NCBI RefSeq assembly: GCF_030418295.1
Contig: NZ_JAUHQA010000001.1
Span: forward strand, 1,860,001-1,924,000
Reading direction: 5' to 3'
Origin: Demequina muriae
GTDB lineage: Bacteria > Actinomycetota > Actinomycetes > Actinomycetales > Demequinaceae
Length of the DNA stretch: 64,000 bases
The translations under genes were made by a program, and so were the position numbers. This document shows positions 6,377-53,173 of the stretch, one piece after another (position 1 is the first letter of the stretch; the number at the start of each line of letters is the position of its first letter). Below the pieces are notes generated by a model. It was not told the origin of the DNA. It ran no database searches and saw only the letters and a list, made by a program, of their open reading frames with translations.

Positions 6377-6425
6377 CGCCCGACCGTCGCACCCAGACCC
6401 GGGAGTGGACGCGTACCGCCATCCG

Positions 6426-6489
6426 GTGCCGCTGCTCTTCAGTGCCACTGCTACTCGGTGCCGCTGCTAATCAGTGCCGCTGCTATTCG
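6426..6489. repeat. Four tandem 16-bp repeats carrying the stop codon of the minus-strand gene
   Basis: Units begin at 6426, 6442, 6458 and 6474, consensus GTGCCGCTGCTAWTCR. The last unit holds the TAG stop of the zincin-like gene (complement of 6483-6485). On that strand TAG recurs at 6467 and 6451; because 16 is not a multiple of 3, the three stops fall in all three frames. Confidence 0.85.
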
Positions 6490-6884
6490 ATGCCATAGTG
6501 CGGGTCGATCTCCTCCGGCGCGCGGCCCAGCACTGCGCCCACCTGCTCGGCGAGGACGTCACGGACGAGCGACGCCACGTCGTCTGAGTCCGCACGCAGC
6601 TCCATCGGCCGCCGGTACAGCACCACGCGCGTGGGCTGACCGAGGTCCGCCGGGAACACGCGACCCAAGGGCACGCCGTGCTCCCACGGCGTCGGGTCCG
6701 ATGGCGGCACGTCCTCGGCGGCGAAGTCGATCCGCCCCCACCGCGATCCCCACCGGCTCTCGAGTCGCTCCGCGCCGTCTCTCACGCAGTCGTCGAACAC
6801 GTCCGCGCGAGTGCGGTAGCCGGGCGCGTCGTAGGGCAGCAGGGGTGCGCGGAGACCGCGGTCGTGGCGATCCCGTCGTCCCAT
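6483..6884 (-). CDS. Zincin-like metallopeptidase-family protein, active-site motif lost (Rv3259 type)
   Basis: A 133-residue protein of the small zincin-like family (PF06262) that lies between DUF3499 and WhiB2 in many Actinobacteria. Family members with activity carry HExGHxxG; here the aligned stretch reads LAEQVGAVLG, so both zinc histidines and the catalytic glutamate are missing, while the flanking RDVL...EEIDP is retained. It is therefore probably not a peptidase. Start at the ATG complementary to 6882-6884 (MGRRDRHDRG); its -10 TAGCGT is 7 nt upstream and there is no ribosome binding site, suggesting a leaderless mRNA divergent from DUF3499. The gene end lies in a 16-bp tandem repeat. 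Confidence 0.75.
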   Translation of the reverse strand: MGRRDRHDRGLRAPLLPYDAPGYRTRADVFDDCVRDGAERLESRWGSRWGRIDFAAEDVPPSDPTPWEHGVPLGRVFPADLGQPTRVVLYRRPMELRADSDDVASLVRDVLAEQVGAVLGRAPEEIDPHYGIE

Positions 6885-6891
6885 GGCGTCC

Positions 6892-6897
6892 ACGCTA
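6892..6897 (-). promoter_or_regulatory. -10 element, leaderless promoter of the zincin-like gene
   Basis: TAGCGT on the minus strand, 7 nt before the ATG at 6884. Confidence 0.5.
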
Positions 6898-21076: not shown

Positions 21077-22800
21077 GGACCCGACACCTGGCCGCAACGG
21101 TCGCGCTCGCCGCGATGACGCTCGTGGGCTGCGCCGCGATCCCGCACAGCGGCGTGGTCGAAGAGGGCGACGCCGACGTGCTGCCCGTCGAGCCGTTGCA
21201 GCCCATCCAGGAGGGCCCCGGTCCCTCCGATGAGCCCGCGGCGATCATCGTGGGCTTCCTCAACGCCTCCGCCGCGGGCGTCGCCTCCGACTTCGCGGTG
21301 GCCAGAGAGTTCCTCACGGACGATGCGGCGGCGGGGTGGAATCCCGGAGCGCAGACGCTCGTCTACCGCTCGGGCGCCGTCACTCCCGCCTGGGATGAGG
21401 AATCTCGCACGGTCGCCTATGAGGTCCCGCTCTCGTCGACCGTCGACTCGTCGGGCCGGCGAGTCGACTCTCCCGACGGCACCGTCGCCGAGCTCGCGTT
21501 CACGCTCACGCAGGACGCCGAGGGGCGGTGGCGCATCTCCGAGCTTCCCGATGGGGTGCTGATGAACCAGGCGAACTTCACCCGGTTCTTCCGTCAGGTC
21601 GACCTGGTGTTCGCCACCCCCGATCTGACGACCGCCGTCCCCGAGGTGCGCTGGCTCCCGGACAACAATGTCGTGACCGCTGCCGCACGCGAACTGGTCG
21701 AGGGCCCCTCGACATGGTTGGCGGATGCAGTCGTCACGGGGTTCCCCGCGACGGCGGCCCTCGCCGTGGAGTCGGTCGTCGTCACCGGCGGCGTCGCGAC
21801 CGTCGATCTCACGCCTCAGTCCGCCGGCACGCCAGAGCAGCGTGCGCTGGCAGCGGAGCAGATGCGCGCGACGCTGGGAGCGATGCCGAGCGTCACGGAC
21901 GTCGCCGTGCGCATCGGCGGCCTGCCGATCGCCACCGATGAGCCCGTCGAACTCACGGCTCCGCCGGTGCCAGAACCCCAGGCGGCTGTGCTCGCGGCAG
22001 GCCGCCTCGGCACATGGGACGGCGAGACTCTGCTGATGACCGCCGATGACGCGGGTGGCGTGGGCGAGGACGTGGAGGGCCTGGCGCGGTCCTACGACGG
22101 CGAGCGCGTGGCGTACGTGGACGGCGACGCGATCATGACCAGCACCGTGCTCGCGGAGGACGGTGCGTCGTTCGCCGCCTTCGAGCCGGACATGCCGGCG
22201 CCGACGGGCGCTGTGGCAGCCTCCGAGGTGTATTCCGGCGGCGACTTGGTGGCGCCGAGCTTCGACCGGCATGGGTATCTGTGGACCGCCCGCGGCGTCG
22301 ACGGCGAGGGACTCATCGCGATCAGCCCGAGCGGGGACAGCGTGGTCCTCGAGAGTGCCTGGCTGCAGACGCGATCGACGATCGCCCTGTCCGTGTCCCG
22401 CGACGGCAGTATGGTCGCCACGCTGTCGCGTTCCGGCGGGCAGCCGGTGGTCGAGGTCGCTGCCGTGGTGCGCGACGGCGCAGGCGTGCCGCTGGGGATC
22501 GGGGAGCCGGTCGCGATCGGGACTGGGGTCGGCGCCGGCGTCGACCTTGCGTGGCTCGACGACTCGACGGTCGCGGTGCTCGGAGAGGACGTCGAGGGTG
22601 CGTCGTCGCCGCTGTGGCTGGTGACGGTCGGTGGTGGCACTTCCGTGGTGACCACTCTGCAGGATGCGGTCGACCTGTCGGTCCGCGTCGGCGAGGCGTC
22701 GCTCGTGGTGGTGGGCGCGGACGGCCGTGTCGAGGAGCGCTCCGGCTCGGCGTGGGCGGCCGTGCTCGAAGGCGTGTCCGAGATCGCATACTCGGGCTAG
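21073..22800 (+). CDS. lpqB: Lipoprotein LpqB
   Basis: Lipoprotein that tunes MtrB activity at the outer face of the membrane. The 575-residue precursor has a signal peptide ending in the lipobox LVGC (acylated Cys20), a Gly/Ser-type GerMN domain (about residues 200-310, AARELVEGPSTWLADAV and GGVATVDLTPQS) and a C-terminal beta-propeller-like domain (RHGYLWTARGVDGEG). GTG at 21073 overlaps the mtrB stop. The last codons lie in an 18-bp imperfect tandem duplication that spans the TAG stop. Confidence 0.95.
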   Translation: MRTRHLAATVALAAMTLVGCAAIPHSGVVEEGDADVLPVEPLQPIQEGPGPSDEPAAIIVGFLNASAAGVASDFAVAREFLTDDAAAGWNPGAQTLVYRSGAVTPAWDEESRTVAYEVPLSSTVDSSGRRVDSPDGTVAELAFTLTQDAEGRWRISELPDGVLMNQANFTRFFRQVDLVFATPDLTTAVPEVRWLPDNNVVTAAARELVEGPSTWLADAVVTGFPATAALAVESVVVTGGVATVDLTPQSAGTPEQRALAAEQMRATLGAMPSVTDVAVRIGGLPIATDEPVELTAPPVPEPQAAVLAAGRLGTWDGETLLMTADDAGGVGEDVEGLARSYDGERVAYVDGDAIMTSTVLAEDGASFAAFEPDMPAPTGAVAASEVYSGGDLVAPSFDRHGYLWTARGVDGEGLIAISPSGDSVVLESAWLQTRSTIALSVSRDGSMVATLSRSGGQPVVEVAAVVRDGAGVPLGIGEPVAIGTGVGAGVDLAWLDDSTVAVLGEDVEGASSPLWLVTVGGGTSVVTTLQDAVDLSVRVGEASLVVVGADGRVEERSGSAWAAVLEGVSEIAYSG

Positions 22801-22816
22801 ATCGCACACTCCGGCC
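22781..22816. repeat. Two tandem 18-bp imperfect copies at the lpqB stop codon
   Basis: Units 22781-22798 and 22799-22816 agree at 15 of 18 positions; the TAG stop spans the unit junction. The matching position after the second unit is CAG, so no second stop is created. Confidence 0.65.
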
Positions 22817-22909
22817 AGAGCCGTCCCCACCAGGGCGAGGCCCCTGCGCCCTGCACCGTGCGACGGTCCTGGCACGGCCTCTGAGCGTCCCTGCGGTCAT
22901 CCTGGCCCG

Positions 22910-28333: not shown

Positions 28334-28777
28334 TCAGCCCACGTGCATCTCGGTGACGAGCCACCTGCCCGTCACGTCCTCGAGCCGCATCGCGATGGCG
28401 CGGCAGTGGTCCCCATCGTCGACGACGATCGAGACCTCGGCCGCGTCCCGCGACACCCGGAACACCCGTGCGCGACGCACGCCGACGGGCCGTGATCGAG
28501 AGAGCCCAGCGCGCCGCGCGAGTGACCGCTGCCGGGCCACCTGCGCGAACACCGCAGGCTCGATCCATCGTGCATACGAGTCCAGCGCCGGGCCGCCCAG
28601 CAGCGCCTCCATGACCGCCTTGGCGACGGTGCAGGCCAGCGGCGTCGGGTCTCCGAGCACCCGGCGCTCCCGGGCGTAGGGAACGGGGGCCGCAGGCCTC
28701 GGCTGCCGGTGCGGCGCCGCGGCAAGCCTCGGCGCACCCGACTGACCCCGGGAGGTGGGGAGGCTCGCGGCGCTCAT
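28334..28777 (-). CDS. Rv3235 family protein (DUF6459)
   Basis: A 147-residue actinobacterial protein of unknown function, usually next to secA. The first 45 residues are Pro/Arg-rich; the conserved domain follows: VAKAVMEALLGGPALDSYARWIEPAVFAQVARQ, then RVFRVSRDAAEVSIVVDDGDHCRAIAMRLE and WLVTEMHVG, a small alpha/beta fold similar in outline to SnoaL/NTF2-like proteins (my inference). ATG at 28777 overlaps the upstream LysM gene stop (ATGA), so the two are one operon. Confidence 0.82.
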   Translation of the reverse strand: MSAASLPTSRGQSGAPRLAAAPHRQPRPAAPVPYARERRVLGDPTPLACTVAKAVMEALLGGPALDSYARWIEPAVFAQVARQRSLARRAGLSRSRPVGVRRARVFRVSRDAAEVSIVVDDGDHCRAIAMRLEDVTGRWLVTEMHVG

Positions 28778-29613
28778 CGCCCCCACCCCTCGGGAATCGC
28801 GAACTCCTGACCGGGATGGATCAGCGAGGGGTCCGGGCCGACGACGCCACGGTTCGCGTCGTACAGTTCCGGCCACCCCTCCGCGATCGCTTCCGCGTCG
28901 AGGCTGACGGCGCCGTCGCGGAGGCCCCCCTCGCGTGCATCGGCCGTGATGCTCCACAACGAGTCGCCCGCAGTCACGACATAGAGCGCGTCTGCGGATC
29001 GGTCTGGGGGTGCCGTCTGCGACGGCGCCTCCGCTGTGGTGGACCCAGAGCCCGCGGGAGGCGGCAGGACCGGGGAGGACGGGGGTGACTCGACGACGCT
29101 GGCCTCATGGGCGATCGGCTCCGGGACCCACCCGGCGTCCGAGTCGCCAGGGGCCGCCACCGCAGGCAGCGCGAGTCCTGCGGAGGCCACCCCGGTCGCG
29201 GCGACGGCGACCACGCGCCGCCACGTCGGTGGGGTGAAGCGGTGTGCGGCCCGTCGCACGCGCGAGCGCTGGGGCGTCGCGACGAGCGCCAACGACATGG
29301 CGCTGAGGTGCGCCGCGACCGCTGCGCCCCCCGCGCCCGCGACGACGGCCAGGGCCTCGCCGAGCGCCACAGGGGCGAGAGCAAGCGACGGCGCCTGTGA
29401 CAGGTCGTGTGCAATCGCGGCACCGGACTCCCACGTGGCGACGGCGAGCATCCAGGCGAGGACCGGCATGGCCACGAGCACGGTCAGGGCCGCAGTCCTC
29501 GTCGCCGCTGTCTTCACTGCCGCAGCGCTCAACGCCGGTGTCTTCACTGCCGCGGAGCGCGCGGCAGGCGTGCCCCGGTTGTCGGTCCGCCGCCCACTTG
29601 TTCCGATCTCCAT
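28774..29613 (-). CDS. LysM peptidoglycan-binding membrane protein
   Basis: The 279-residue protein has two hydrophobic regions (about residues 35-65 and 75-115), a third segment VVAVAATGVASAGLALPAVAA that resembles a signal/anchor, a Pro/Ser-rich spacer, and a C-terminal LysM domain (YVVTAGDSLWSITAD ... ELYDANRGVVGPDPSLIHPGQEFAIP). It probably holds an envelope complex on peptidoglycan. I start at the ATG complementary to 29611-29613, with AGAGGTG six bases upstream; another ATG ten codons earlier (29643) is possible. Operon with the Rv3235-family gene. Divergent from the gene at 29736. Confidence 0.78.
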   Translation of the reverse strand: MEIGTSGRRTDNRGTPAARSAAVKTPALSAAAVKTAATRTAALTVLVAMPVLAWMLAVATWESGAAIAHDLSQAPSLALAPVALGEALAVVAGAGGAAVAAHLSAMSLALVATPQRSRVRRAAHRFTPPTWRRVVAVAATGVASAGLALPAVAAPGDSDAGWVPEPIAHEASVVESPPSSPVLPPPAGSGSTTAEAPSQTAPPDRSADALYVVTAGDSLWSITADAREGGLRDGAVSLDAEAIAEGWPELYDANRGVVGPDPSLIHPGQEFAIPEGWGR

Positions 29614-32490: not shown

Positions 32491-32931
32491 ATGCGCGTCT
32501 ACGTGCCCATCGCCGTCGAGGACCTGGGTCAGTGTCTGTCCGGAGCGTGGGAACCCCGCACCGGATACGCGCTGACCCCCACGCTCCTCGACATCTCGGC
32601 CTCCGACGATGACGAGCTGCTGGCCGAGCAGGTGCGCGACGCCGCGGCCGCCGATGCGGTGCTCGAACTGGGGGCCCCCCGTCGCGCCGTGATCGCCGTC
32701 GACTACCCGCGCGCCGATGTCGAGCAGGTGGTCGGCGAGCACCCGGCCGCCGTGACGCTCACTGGACGGGTGAGGGCCGATGCGGTGGCGTGTGCCTTCG
32801 TCGACGAGCCCGATGCGGAGGTCGACGGCCGCGCGGCCGCCCAAGGCGACTCCGACGCGCTCGCGAGGCTCGAGGAGCGCGACCTGCTCTGGTACGACGT
32901 GAGCGAGATCGCAGACCTCGCCACCTCCTAG
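32491..32931 (+). CDS. DUF6912 family protein
   Basis: A 146-residue soluble protein found across Actinobacteria; function unknown. It begins MRVYVPIAVEDLGQCLSGAW and has the conserved AVIAVDYPRADV core and the C-terminal ALARLEERDLLWYDVSEI. It begins 4 bp after the CpaE-like gene, so it may be co-transcribed. It converges with hisN, and their stops share the palindrome CTAG at 32928-32931. Confidence 0.78.
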   Translation: MRVYVPIAVEDLGQCLSGAWEPRTGYALTPTLLDISASDDDELLAEQVRDAAAADAVLELGAPRRAVIAVDYPRADVEQVVGEHPAAVTLTGRVRADAVACAFVDEPDAEVDGRAAAQGDSDALARLEERDLLWYDVSEIADLATS

Positions 32932-33716
32932 GGCTGGAGCCGGGCCGCGATCTGGGCGTGCAGCAGCCCATTGGTGGCGAGGGCGTCCCCGCCGAACGGC
33001 CCTGGCTCGCCGGCGAGCGAGGTGAACTGCCCACCTGCCTCCGTCACGATGGGCACCAGCGCCGCCATGTCGTACAGCTCGAGCTCGGGCTCCATCGCGG
33101 CATCGACCACGCCCTCGGCCACCAGCATGTAGCTCCAGAAGTCGCCATAGGCTCGGGTGCGCCACGCGTCGTCCGCCAGCCCGAGGAAGGCCGGCAGCAG
33201 CCCGCGCTCGTCCCACCCGGACAGCGACGAGTACGAGAGGCTCGCCTCGGTGAGGTCGTCCACCGTGGAGACGCCGATGCGCTCGGCGGAGTCCACGGTC
33301 CGTCCTCTCCACGCGCCGTCCCCGGCGGCGGCGAACCACCGACGTGCGAGCGCGGGCGCGCTCACGACGCCCATGACTGGGACGCCGTCGTCGATCAGGG
33401 CGATGAGCGTCGCCCACACGGGCACGCCGCGGACGAAGTTCTTGGTGCCGTCGATGGGATCGACGACCCACTGGCGTGCGCCCCCCGAGGTGGAGCCGTA
33501 CTCCTCGCCCACGAACGCATCGGCCGGTCGCTCGCTGGCGACCCGCGCGCGGATGATGCGCTCCGCCTCCCGGTCGATCGCGGTGACGGGGGAGTCGTCC
33601 GCCTTGAGCTCGACCTCGAAGTGGCCTGTCGAGGCGGGAAGGGTGAGGGCGTCGACCTCGTCCGCGATGCTGAGAGCGAGCGCGAGGTCGGCGGCGTAGG
33701 GTCCGGCGGGCTGCAT
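32928..33716 (-). CDS. hisN: Histidinol-phosphatase, inositol-monophosphatase type
   Basis: Removes phosphate from L-histidinol phosphate in histidine biosynthesis; inositol-monophosphatase fold, Mg2+-dependent. The 262-residue protein has the metal motifs DDSPVTAIDREAE, GEEYG, and VVDPIDGTKNFVRG, plus a C-terminal WDMAAL-like variant (ELYDMAALVPIVTEAGG). The aroA-rsgA-hisN order is the actinobacterial HisN context, which favours HisN over a generic inositol phosphatase. ATG at 33716 has TAGCCT 6 nt upstream and no ribosome site. The rsgA stop ladder lies about 45-105 bp upstream of its start. Confidence 0.86.
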   Translation of the reverse strand: MQPAGPYAADLALALSIADEVDALTLPASTGHFEVELKADDSPVTAIDREAERIIRARVASERPADAFVGEEYGSTSGGARQWVVDPIDGTKNFVRGVPVWATLIALIDDGVPVMGVVSAPALARRWFAAAGDGAWRGRTVDSAERIGVSTVDDLTEASLSYSSLSGWDERGLLPAFLGLADDAWRTRAYGDFWSYMLVAEGVVDAAMEPELELYDMAALVPIVTEAGGQFTSLAGEPGPFGGDALATNGLLHAQIAARLQP

Positions 33717-33722
33717 GGCTCC

Positions 33723-33728
33723 AGGCTA
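33723..33728 (-). promoter_or_regulatory. -10 element, leaderless promoter of hisN
   Basis: TAGCCT on the minus strand, 6 nt before the ATG at 33716. Confidence 0.5.
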
Positions 33729-33758: not shown

Positions 33759-33821
33759 GGTCACCCCGGAGTGGTCACCCCGCGGTGGTCACCCCGCGGT
33801 GGTCACCGCGCAGTGATCACC
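33759..33821. repeat. Four and a half tandem 14-bp repeats carrying the rsgA stop codon
   Basis: Units begin at 33759, 33773, 33787 and 33801, consensus GGTCACCCCGCGGT, with a half unit at 33815-33821 that contains the rsgA TGA (complement of 33817-33819). TGA recurs on that strand at 33803, 33789, 33775 and 33761, covering all three frames. Confidence 0.85.
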
Positions 33822-34830
33822 ATGCGTCGCCCTCGGCCCGCGACGCGAGCAGCCGGCGGATCGATACCACGCGCGCGCGCTGATCGGGCGTGGACGCCCA
33901 CGCGTCGAGCGCGCATCCGGCCTCCTCCGACTCGTGCGTGCAGCCCCGGGGGCAGCCCTCCGCCGCCGCCTCGGCCACGTCGGGGAAGGCGGCGATGAAG
34001 TGCTCGGGGTTGACGTGCGCGAGGCCGAAGGACCGGATCCCGGGGGTGTCGATGATGCGCCCGCCACCGGGCAGATCGAAAGCGATCGCGGAGGTCGAGG
34101 TGTGCCGGCCCCGGCCCGTGACGTCGTTCACGATGCCCGTGGTGCGGTGCGCCTCGGGCACGATCGCGTTCACCAGGGTCGACTTGCCCACCCCGGAGTA
34201 GCCCACGAGGACCGTCGATCGCCCCTGGAGGCGCTCACGCAGCTCGTCGAGGCCGGTGAAGGTGCGGTCCTCGCCCACCGTGGTCATCGTGGTGGTGAGC
34301 AGCGCGACGCCGAGCGGGTCGTAGGAGTCCCGGAGCGCATCGGCCGATGCGAGGTCGCCCTTGGTGAGCACGAGCAGGGCGTCCATGCCCGCGTCGAACG
34401 CCGCGACGAGGCAGCGGTCGATCATGCGGGGGTTGGGCTCGGGGTCCGCGAGCGACGTGACGATCGCCAGCTGCTGGGCGTTCGCGACGACGACGCGCTC
34501 AGTGGGGTCGGTGTCGTCCGCGGTGCGGCGCAGCTCGGTCGCCCTGGGCTCGCGGCGCACGATGCGCGCGAGGGAGCCGTCCTGTCCGCTCGTGTCGCCG
34601 ACCACCCCCACCCGGTCGCCCACGACCAGTCCGCGTCGACCGAGCTCCCTCGCCTTCACCGCCGTGAGGGAGACCCCGTCGTCCATGTGGACGGCGAGGC
34701 GGCCGCGGTCCACGCCGATGACGGTCCCGGGGACGGCGTCGAGGTGCGCCGGCCGGATCTTCGAACGAGGACGGGAGCCGCGCCGGCCGGGCCGCACGCG
34801 AGCGTCTGACTCGTCGTACTCGCGCCTCAC
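33817..34830 (-). CDS. rsgA: Ribosome small subunit-dependent GTPase A
   Basis: Circularly permuted GTPase that checks late 30S maturation. The 337-residue protein has an N-terminal OB fold (about residues 30-105), a GTPase domain in the order G4 (VLTKGD), G1 (GYSGVGKSTL), G3 (IDTPG), and a C-terminal zinc-binding region CPRGCTHESEEAGCAL. GTG at 34830 overlaps the aroA stop (GTGA), giving the coupled DoxX-aroA-rsgA operon. Its stop lies inside a 14-bp tandem repeat that supplies stops in every frame. Confidence 0.94.
   Translation of the reverse strand: MRREYDESDARVRPGRRGSRPRSKIRPAHLDAVPGTVIGVDRGRLAVHMDDGVSLTAVKARELGRRGLVVGDRVGVVGDTSGQDGSLARIVRREPRATELRRTADDTDPTERVVVANAQQLAIVTSLADPEPNPRMIDRCLVAAFDAGMDALLVLTKGDLASADALRDSYDPLGVALLTTTMTTVGEDRTFTGLDELRERLQGRSTVLVGYSGVGKSTLVNAIVPEAHRTTGIVNDVTGRGRHTSTSAIAFDLPGGGRIIDTPGIRSFGLAHVNPEHFIAAFPDVAEAAAEGCPRGCTHESEEAGCALDAWASTPDQRARVVSIRRLLASRAEGDAW
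34336..34351. repeat. 16-bp perfect palindrome made of two overlapping copies of the over-represented 9-mer
   Basis: CGCATCGGCCGATGCG within rsgA. It is the palindromic fusion of CGCATCGGC and GCCGATGCG, a word that recurs throughout the window. Confidence 0.6.
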
Positions 34831-51005: not shown

Positions 51006-51248
51006 ATGAGTCGCAAGATCAGCGTGAGAATAGGTGAGACGGTCGGGATCGGTCTCATCGGCGACGGCGTGATCGGCTTGCTGCAGCCGGAGCAGCACAT
51101 CGCGCGCTGGGAGTCCGGACCGGCGTGGTGGCAGCGGGCGCTCAAGCCGTTCGTGGGCAACGCGCGCAACACCCGCACGTTCGCCGCGGCCGAGGTGGTC
51201 GCGGGTGTCGCCATCGTGTGGCTCCTGCCGCCTGGCCGCAAGGACTAG
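51006..51248 (+). CDS. Small hypothetical protein ending in a stop-codon repeat
   Basis: An 80-residue protein, no family recognised. MSRKISVRIGETVGIGLIGDGVIGLLQPEQHIARWESGP, a tryptophan-rich WWQRALKPFVG and a hydrophobic end FAAAEVVAGVAIVWLLP. Probably a small membrane-associated protein. It follows the aldo/keto reductase by 24 bp, with GGAGG about five bases upstream of ATG 51006. The last codons and TAG stop are repeated four times as 17-bp units. Confidence 0.55.
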   Translation: MSRKISVRIGETVGIGLIGDGVIGLLQPEQHIARWESGPAWWQRALKPFVGNARNTRTFAAAEVVAGVAIVWLLPPGRKD

Positions 51249-51304
51249 CGGGGCGCAAGGACTAGCGGGGCGCAAGGACTAGCTGGTCGCGAGGACTAGC
51301 TAGT
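51237..51304. repeat. Four tandem 17-bp repeats carrying the stop codon
   Basis: Units start at 51237, 51254, 51271 and 51288, consensus CGCAAGGACTAGCKGGK. TAG occurs at 51246, 51263, 51280 and 51297, that is in all three frames (51246 and 51297 share one). The first is the stop of the small gene at 51006-51248. Confidence 0.9.
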
Positions 51305-51357: not shown

Positions 51358-52032
51358 TCATGCGCCCGCAGCGAGCGTGACCGCGAGGGCGAGCATCACC
51401 AGCGCGATCGCGGCGTCGAGCACGCGCCATGCGCCCGGCTTGGCGAGCACGCCGCTGAACAGCCGCGCTCCGTAGCCGAGCGCGGTGAACCACACGATCG
51501 ACCCCACGATCGCGCCCGCGCCGAAGAGCCAGCGCGCATCGCCGTGGGATGACGCGATCGTGCCGAGCAGGAGCACGGTGTCCAAGTAGACGTGCGGGTT
51601 GAGCCAGGTGAGCGCGAGGCAGGTCACCGCAGTCGCGCTCATTGATGCGGTCCCGGGTGCGAGGGTGCGGACGGGGACGGCGCTTGCGTTCCCCTGGATC
51701 TGGTGTTCGGGTGCGGTCCCTCCCTCGGCCTCAAGGGCCGTGGCGCGCGGCCGCCATGCCCGCCGCGCGGCGAGCACCGCATAGCCGAGCAGGAAGATCG
51801 CGCCTCCCCATCGGATCGCCGTCACCAGAGCGGGAGCGGAGGAGAGTGCCGCTCCGACGCCCGCGACGCCAGCAGCGATGAGCAGCGCGTCGGATGCCGC
51901 GCAGATGGTGACGACCAGTCCCACGTGCTCGCGGCGCAGCCCCTGGCGCAGCACGAAGACGTTCTGGGCGCCGATGGCGATGATGAGGGAGAGCCCGAGG
52001 GCCATGCCGGCGAGGAAGGTCACGGGATCCAC
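51358..52032 (-). CDS. LysE/ArgO-family amino acid exporter
   Basis: Exports basic amino acids (lysine/arginine). The 224-residue protein has five to six membrane helices: FLAGMALGLSLIIAIGAQNVFVLRQGLRREH is the family signature, then CLALTWLNPHVYLDTVLLLG. Divergent from a LysR-type regulator of the LysG/ArgP class, the classic exporter/activator pairing. GTG at 52032. Confidence 0.9.
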   Translation of the reverse strand: MDPVTFLAGMALGLSLIIAIGAQNVFVLRQGLRREHVGLVVTICAASDALLIAAGVAGVGAALSSAPALVTAIRWGGAIFLLGYAVLAARRAWRPRATALEAEGGTAPEHQIQGNASAVPVRTLAPGTASMSATAVTCLALTWLNPHVYLDTVLLLGTIASSHGDARWLFGAGAIVGSIVWFTALGYGARLFSGVLAKPGAWRVLDAAIALVMLALAVTLAAGA

Positions 52033-52085: not shown

Positions 52086-52970
52086 ATGGCTGATATGAAG
52101 GTGCCTCCAGACCTTGCCGCGACTCTTGCCGCGGCCGTCTCGGAGGGCTCGCTGGAAGGGGCGGCGCGTGCCCTTCACGTCTCGCAGCCCGCGGTCACGC
52201 AGCGCATCCAGGCCCTCGAGAAGACGGTGGGCCAGGTGCTGCTGGTGCGGTCACGTCCCGTGCGCGCCACGGCTGCCGGAGAAGCGGTGATCCGGTATGC
52301 GCGCCAGGTCGAACATCTCGAGCGCGACCTTGGGGAGGCGCTCGGGGTGGAGACGCAGCCGCGCCCCAGCGTCGCCATCGCCGTGAACGGGGACTCGCTC
52401 GCCACATGGTTCCTCGAGCCCCTCGCGGTGCTCGCCGACGAGCTGGGCGTCACCTTTCAGCTCCATCGTGAGGACGAGGGGCGCACGGCGGACCTGCTGT
52501 CCGACGGTACCGTCGCCGCTGCGGTCACAACCCGCTCCGCGCCCGTGCCGGGCTGCACGGTGACCCGCCTGGGAGACATGCGCTACGGGGCGTTCGCGTC
52601 GCAGGCCTTCGCGGCGCAGTGGTTCCCCGACGGGGTGTCAGCGCCTGCCCTCAGTTCCGCTCCGGTCGTGGACGTGGACGAGGACGACGCACTCCAGACG
52701 CGCTTTCTGCGCGCGCACGACGTCGATCCGCACCAGCCGCCTCGCCACCGCATCCCCGGATCCTCCGAAATGGTGCGTGCCATCGAGCTCGGCATGGGGT
52801 GGGCGGTGCTGCCACCCGCACTGGGGGCGCAGGCCGCCGGCCTGGTGGAGCTGGGCGGACCAATCGTGACGGTGCCGTTGCACTGGCAGCAGTGGCGGGT
52901 TCGGTCGGCACTGCTTGACCGCATCGCGGCGGAGGTGGCAGCGGCCGCGTCGACTGCCCTGGGCCGCTGA
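52086..52970 (+). CDS. LysR-type regulator of the LysG/ArgP (IciA) class
   Basis: Activates the divergent lysE when intracellular lysine or arginine is high. The 294-residue protein has an N-terminal winged helix (LAATLAAAVSEGSLEGAARALHVSQPAVTQRIQALEKTVGQVLLVR) and the ligand-binding fold (IAVNGDSLATWFLEPLA, typical of ArgP). The 53-bp gap to lysE holds AT-rich sequence around TAAATTGTAGCGATG that is a candidate binding site. Followed by a strong terminator. Confidence 0.88.
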   Translation: MADMKVPPDLAATLAAAVSEGSLEGAARALHVSQPAVTQRIQALEKTVGQVLLVRSRPVRATAAGEAVIRYARQVEHLERDLGEALGVETQPRPSVAIAVNGDSLATWFLEPLAVLADELGVTFQLHREDEGRTADLLSDGTVAAAVTTRSAPVPGCTVTRLGDMRYGAFASQAFAAQWFPDGVSAPALSSAPVVDVDEDDALQTRFLRAHDVDPHQPPRHRIPGSSEMVRAIELGMGWAVLPPALGAQAAGLVELGGPIVTVPLHWQQWRVRSALLDRIAAEVAAAASTALGR

Positions 52971-53079: not shown

Positions 53080-53100
53080 CAGTGTCGCGAGCATGCGACG

Positions 53101-53173
53101 CGCCCTCGACAGGAATCGAACCTGCGACCTTCGGTACCGGAAACCGGTGCTCTATCCGCTGAGCTACGAGGGC
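53101..53173 (-). tRNA. tRNA-Arg (anticodon CCG)
   Basis: Cloverleaf on the minus strand: acceptor GCCCTCG/CGAGGGC, D arm GCTC/GAGC, anticodon loop TTCCGGT with anticodon CCG reading CGG, T arm GCAGG/CCTGT with TTCGAAT loop. A C-A mismatch tops the anticodon stem. The 3' CCA is not encoded. I see no duplicated tRNA end or integrase nearby, so no element is integrated here. Confidence 0.93.

Follow-up and report, generated by a model that had tools for sequence, protein, structure and literature searches.

Bacterial minisatellites, or VNTRs, consist of short direct repeats in near-identical copies, and where their units are non-coding they are free of the multiple-of-three rule. Additional stop codons of the fail-safe or tandem kind are reportedly the subject of a paper on yeast. 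In marine Beggiatoaceae some of the TAACTGA direct repeats overlap stop codons (MacGregor 2015, PMC4679880), and in a later analysis of eubacteria additional stops are reported to show no sign of selection (Ho and Hurst 2019, PMC6764699). No description of stop-straddling arrays of varied sequence was found in the literature searched, which consists mainly of open sources.

The array considered here lies at the 3′ end of rsgA in Demequina muriae (assembly of 2.80 Mb in 64 contigs), within a 64-kb stretch that was analysed as a whole and is referred to below as the window (features in Table 1). It has a period of 14 bp, 4.5 copies and 89% matches with a TRF score of 91, and its TRF consensus on the plus strand is GGTCACCCCGCAGT. 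TRF thus recovers the arrangement of the original prediction, which had read the end of rsgA as 14-bp units (4.5 of them); the gene's own stop lies in the first. The same prediction had placed minus-strand TGA triplets covering all three frames at five positions, and all five are right: on the plus strand between 33701 and 33830, TCA (TGA on the minus strand) starts at 33761, 33775, 33789, 33803 and 33817. The array begins 2 bp upstream of the stop and so includes no more than the final bases of the last sense codon. Readthrough of the rsgA TGA leads to an in-frame stop after 13 residues (at 33775), a +1 stop after 9 and a +2 stop after 4, the second in-frame stop lying 42 nt downstream of the first. 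In 30 first-order Markov shuffles of the window no array reached a score of 90 (maximum 73), whereas the real window holds four with a score of at least 90 after merging of overlapping TRF rows. The rsgA array therefore has at least three adjacent near-identical copies beyond chance, as expected of a minisatellite. The claim that the arrays are independent in sequence also held, as a search of the genome with 151 bp around the rsgA array returned only the locus itself, with no second copy at E<0.01.

Table 1. Features of the window that are discussed in the text.
Feature	Position	Strand	Basis and remarks
14-bp × 4.5 tandem array	33759..33821	−	TRF score 91 and direct reading; rsgA stop inside first unit
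TGA stop of rsgA, the ladder's first rung	33817..33819	−	Gene call and sequence
Four copied TGA triplets	33761..33805	−	Leftmost bases 33803, 33789, 33775, 33761; 33775 in frame with rsgA
rsgA, ribosome small subunit GTPase, upstream gene	33817..34830	−	PF03193, E=1.7e-44; start from home-made gene caller
hisN-like inositol-phosphatase-family gene, downstream	32928..33716	−	PF00459, E=3.5e-47; name hisN from the original prediction
TAGCCT, −10-like motif of hisN	33723..33728	−	Direct reading; 6 bp before ATG
Sister array, 16-bp units	6424..6494	−	Over TAG of gene 6483-6893; three TAG, three frames
Sister array, 17-bp × 3.8	51237..51300	+	Over TAG of gene 51006-51248; four TAG
Sister array, 18-bp × 2.2	22781..22819	+	Over TAG of gene 21115-22800

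The two flanking genes are co-directional, with 100 bp between the rsgA stop (33819-33817) and the hisN-like ATG (33716-33714), and 30 bp separate the end of the array from the −10-like TAGCCT. A consensus scan found no promoter. A loose TAnnnN..ATG pattern is present in 23 of the 30 Demequina rsgA 3′ flanks, and in these 23 the distance from stop to motif varies from 0 to 232 bp. In three relatives (L016, L020 and L021) the TAG stop of rsgA is the TAG of TAGCCT just before the next ATG, so that one triplet may serve as both stop and motif.

The nearest relative found was D. aestuarii NBRC 106260 (G002), the rsgA of which is 97–98% identical. TRF with a score of at least 40 was run on 30 Demequina rsgA 3′ ends, namely that of D. 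muriae and those of 29 of 43 relatives with an rsgA match, one genome being compared per species. No array was detected at this threshold in 28 of the 29 relatives (a set that includes one match, L022, which is cut short, so that its ‘end’ is perhaps not the true gene end), and the sole exception, L029, carries a 15-bp array that is unrelated and starts downstream of its stop. The relatives’ ends are therefore without this array, an outcome that had been named beforehand as counting against the original prediction. From the rsgA stop to TAGCCT the distance is 91 bp in D. muriae vs 49 bp in D. aestuarii, a difference of exactly 42 bp or 3 × 14, and the D. aestuarii end reads TGATCACCGCGTACTGACC, with one faint 14-bp repeat in which TGA..TGAC is spaced by 14 bp. 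Copy number thus differs between close relatives, as it does in minisatellites, by three units. As the difference is exactly three units, comparison of the two sequences suggests that the array most likely grew in the D. muriae lineage, either by three additions of 14 bp or by a smaller number of longer ones.

Our preferred reading, to which we assign a probability of about 0.8, is that the rsgA array is a recent, species-specific minisatellite in a permissive 3′ gap and that the ladder of stops is a by-product, not a termination device. In the ancestral rsgA–hisN gap a faint 14-bp repeat, much like that of D. aestuarii, was probably present at the stop, and slipped-strand replication would then have added 42 bp in the D. 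muriae lineage. Such an insertion could be tolerated because the last codons and the stop of rsgA are preserved in the first unit, while the bases adjoining hisN follow the last unit unchanged. Each unit has a stop because the first had one, and since 14 cannot be divided by three, successive units present that stop in different frames. We infer in this way the direction in which the gap changed, slipped-strand replication as the mechanism and the neutrality of the outcome.

A sample of 1.264 Mb of the D. muriae genome (the window plus 60 spread 20-kb stretches; 45% of the genome, with 1,118 gene stops) was surveyed with TRF at a score of at least 50, genes being called by a home-made program for which the sampled sequence itself served as training set. 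Arrays that extend beyond coding sequence or lie outside it number 41, of which 22 straddle a stop and one a start, the remaining 18 being at other positions. L161, one of the 22, is a gene overlap that D. aestuarii has as well; it was dropped, leaving 21 in most counts, or about 2% of the sampled genes, so that the same arrangement does occur at other loci as had been proposed. Unit lengths range from 14 to 52 bp, and both units and lengths differ from one another on sight. Not every copy carries a stop, the second copy of the sister array at 22781..22819 reading CAG. The orthologous D. aestuarii end was readable for 13 of the 22, and 12 of these have no stop-straddling array, the 13th being the L161 overlap; three D. 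aestuarii loci that were checked outside the main survey (L166, L167 and L079) have no stop array. Coverage by distance from the stop showed that arrays are frequent up to about 100 bp past stops and scarcer near starts, a pattern that did not separate the hypotheses. The only start-overlapping array of the sample lies in the window at 29489-29553 (30-bp × 2.2, with a 15-bp sub-unit), at the 5′ end of a called ORF, 28774-29517, the start call of which is uncertain. As a separate observation, D. aestuarii has a tRNA-Arg (CCG) within about 100 bp after the orthologue of gene 51006-51248; in the D. muriae window a tRNA-Arg (CCG) lies at 53100-53173, with called genes 51358-52032 and 52095-52970 between it and 51006-51248, which suggests a difference of about 1.8 kb at this junction.

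Stop-straddling arrays were also sought in other genomes. D. aestuarii has none in 492 stops (P=0.0006), and there are none in the 172 stops of genome G027. Across 28 Demequina or Demequinaceae rsgA neighbourhoods, D. aestuarii included, one of 21 non-coding arrays straddles a stop, and at 39 other actinobacterial loci the figure is 8 of 26. For a sample at the level of the order, nine other Micrococcales genomes supplied 80 kb each (617 stops), a tenth (G095) having been dropped as the gene caller returned zero genes for it; its eight arrays are among the 47 scored as ‘inter’ in the uncorrected tally. In this order sample 11 arrays straddle stops in seven of the nine genomes, or nine arrays in five genomes once two doubtful rows (L230 and L219, with ends overlapping a called or likely gene) are dropped, and some of them, such as a 17-bp × 4.1 array in G068, are as striking as that of rsgA. 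The rate per stop is similar in the two samples (21/1,118 in D. muriae vs 9/617 in the other Micrococcales, P=0.57), whereas, set against the other non-coding arrays, straddling ones are more frequent in D. muriae (21:18) than in the order sample (9:39, P=0.0008), start-overlapping arrays (one in D. muriae, four in the order sample) being counted on neither side.

How many arrays should straddle a stop by chance depends on the null model. A first null compared 22 bp of ‘stop’ space per gene with the whole of the non-coding DNA; it returned P=1.5e-8 (22 of 41 arrays straddling) and was discarded because it is blind to short 3′ gaps and to promoter sides that tolerate few arrays. In the null that replaced it a duplication of length L spares the gene if the first copy keeps the stop, which gives about L straddling positions per gene end; each gap was taken at its length without the inserted copies, region by region, and for co-directional gaps the 40 bp adjoining the downstream start were left out. 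With this null no signal is left for co-directional gaps, the class of rsgA–hisN, in which 5 of 15 arrays straddle a stop with 4.6 expected; placement at this class of gap is thus at chance level. Within the window taken alone both of two co-directional arrays straddle (P=0.018), but the window was chosen for its ladders. In convergent gaps of D. muriae 16 of 17 arrays straddle a stop, with 9.8 expected (P=1.2e-4; from the set that retains L161) or, by a second estimate from the set lacking L161, 9.45 expected (P=2e-5), and as the window was chosen for its ladders the count is also given without it (14 of 15, 9.0 expected, P=7e-4); these P values treat arrays as independent though the convergent arrays fall at 15 junctions, two of which have an array at both stops. 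At those two junctions (L148:11553-11709 and L196:3584-3797) each of the facing genes has its own stop-straddling array and the two sequences are different.

A plainly neutral reading does not account for the excess at convergent ends of D. muriae, nor for the lack of it in the sister species D. aestuarii. Together with the 21:18 vs 9:39 ratio and the sister's zero, the excess leaves room for a stop-linked bias, as do the window-only co-directional count and, described below, the small number of unit lengths divisible by three and the folding of the rsgA array RNA. One alternative is a lineage-specific mutational hotspot at the stops of convergent genes, with duplications seeded, for example, where ribosomes come off the mRNA and converging transcription units abut; slippage could still be the mutational step. 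We consider it unlikely. The convergent excess and the empty D. aestuarii stops speak for it, but rsgA–hisN is co-directional and belongs to the class without excess, and the excess itself comes from one genome with our own gene calls and TRF cut-off. It did not recur in the other sets, where the convergent counts were 6 of 16 in the order sample (4.96 expected), 4 of 8 in other actinobacteria (3.42 expected), 1 of 9 in other Demequina (0.66 expected) and 0 of 2 in D. aestuarii (0.16 expected); co-directional gaps of the order sample likewise showed none (5 of 20, 5.2 expected), both order-sample counts being taken before the two doubtful rows were dropped. Loss of NucS, the one repair gene examined, was ruled out by its presence. 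A wider version, in which duplications in the D. muriae lineage would be drawn to or kept at convergent stops (21/1,118, most of them apparently after the split from D. aestuarii) by a stop-linked hotspot or as a selected all-frame terminator, at a strength unmatched in the other Micrococcales sampled, seems to us improbable too.

Selection for fail-safe termination, in which stops in all frames would catch readthrough or slipped ribosomes and limit long C-terminal extensions in a stop-poor genome, we regard as very unlikely. Stops are indeed rare downstream of D. muriae genes (59 of 4,959 in-frame triplets, array genes left out), TGA is kept in all four later units of the rsgA array, and stop triplets are kept in 32 of 39 later units over the 21 arrays. 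However, mismatches in later units affect 13 of 121 stop-column positions (10.7%) vs 95 of 661 others (14.4%), a difference in the direction predicted by selection but not significant in this small sample (permutation P=0.33). Stops in all three frames are found in 7 of the 21 arrays, and the other 14 fall short. Array-free genes show no in-frame excess of downstream stops (0.0119 in frame vs 0.0107 and 0.0167 in the other frames) and no more of them than in ladder-free D. aestuarii (29/2,367, or 0.0123). A loss of the termination or rescue machinery was ruled out, as D. muriae has two release-factor-domain matches and tmRNA; the other 43 Demequina likewise have release-factor matches and tmRNA (three release-factor matches in G040). 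The eubacterial analysis mentioned at the outset points the same way. Unit lengths were expected by the original prediction to depart from randomness relative to three and are indistinguishable from random: multiples of three make up 3 of the 21 D. muriae stop arrays (P=0.067) and 9 of 39 stop arrays pooled over all sets sampled (P=0.23). The low D. muriae count leans towards selected stops, without significance. Among coding arrays of the D. muriae sample, on the other hand, 120 of 135 have unit lengths that are multiples of three vs 3 of 22 stop arrays (L161 included), which indicates that unit length is constrained by the reading frame within genes but is free of this constraint at stops. 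The idea of ‘convergent evolution’ therefore stands as regards repeated independent origin; as regards a selected arrangement it is unsupported, save for the unexplained excess at convergent gene ends, and an adaptive reading of the rsgA ladder is not supported.

A role of the rsgA array as a transcription terminator, or as a multi-site protein-binding element for rsgA or hisN, is highly improbable. The array RNA does fold strongly, at −49.6 kcal/mol (z −2.92 vs its shuffles, and z −3.00 when the segment is taken from the stop onwards), but an intrinsic terminator has a GC-rich hairpin followed by a T run, and no terminator-like site with a T run was found. The array is, moreover, missing in relatives that retain the hisN −10-like motif. 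A terminator role for the stop arrays as a class is unsupported: although a few fold strongly, the 21 taken together do not exceed a set of 84 other 3′ ends in structure (mean z −1.00 vs −0.99, P=0.72). Insertion of one dispersed repeat family or mobile element at stops can practically be dismissed, since nothing in D. muriae speaks for it, the stop arrays differ in unit and length and the rsgA array has no second match at the sensitivity given above. A dispersed tandem family does exist elsewhere: in the Micrococcales genome G044 arrays at two distant loci (L207:9994-10300 and L227:7996-8369) share the unit GTGATCATGCAATCCCGCCAC, and one of the two straddles a stop.

On the preferred reading of a recent minisatellite, the rsgA array illustrates that eye-catching stops in all frames at a gene end can result from nothing more than a filter on position. 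Tandem duplications persist at places where the stop is preserved in the first copy, and a unit length not divisible by three then shifts each further copy into another frame. The array provides a definite null against which proposed cases of selected stop ladders can be judged. Should a full survey confirm the excess at convergent ends, this would suggest that a duplication hotspot, or selection, is tied to gene ends.

Compared with fail-safe or tandem stops, the rsgA array resembles them in having extra stops downstream of the primary one; those, however, are in frame and have been tested for selection, whereas the D. muriae stops are copied along with their units and are mostly out of frame. 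The Beggiatoaceae TAACTGA repeats form one dispersed heptamer family that mostly points at downstream start codons (PMC4679880). Each D. muriae array examined, in contrast, has its own sequence, and the rsgA unit is confined to its locus in its own genome at E<0.01, unlike a unit that recurs at many loci. Tandem repeats of Bacillus, with units of 52 and of 20–21 nt, are also reported to be species-specific, varied in sequence and outside genes (PMC8161180), but there the unit length is constant whereas it runs from 14 to 52 bp in the stop arrays of D. muriae. With bacterial minisatellites the rsgA array shares short, near-identical direct repeats, a non-coding unit not bound to multiples of three and a copy number that differs from the closest relative, and it departs from them in general in beginning at a stop codon. 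Stop-straddling arrays are, on this comparison, an ordinary kind of tandem repeat.
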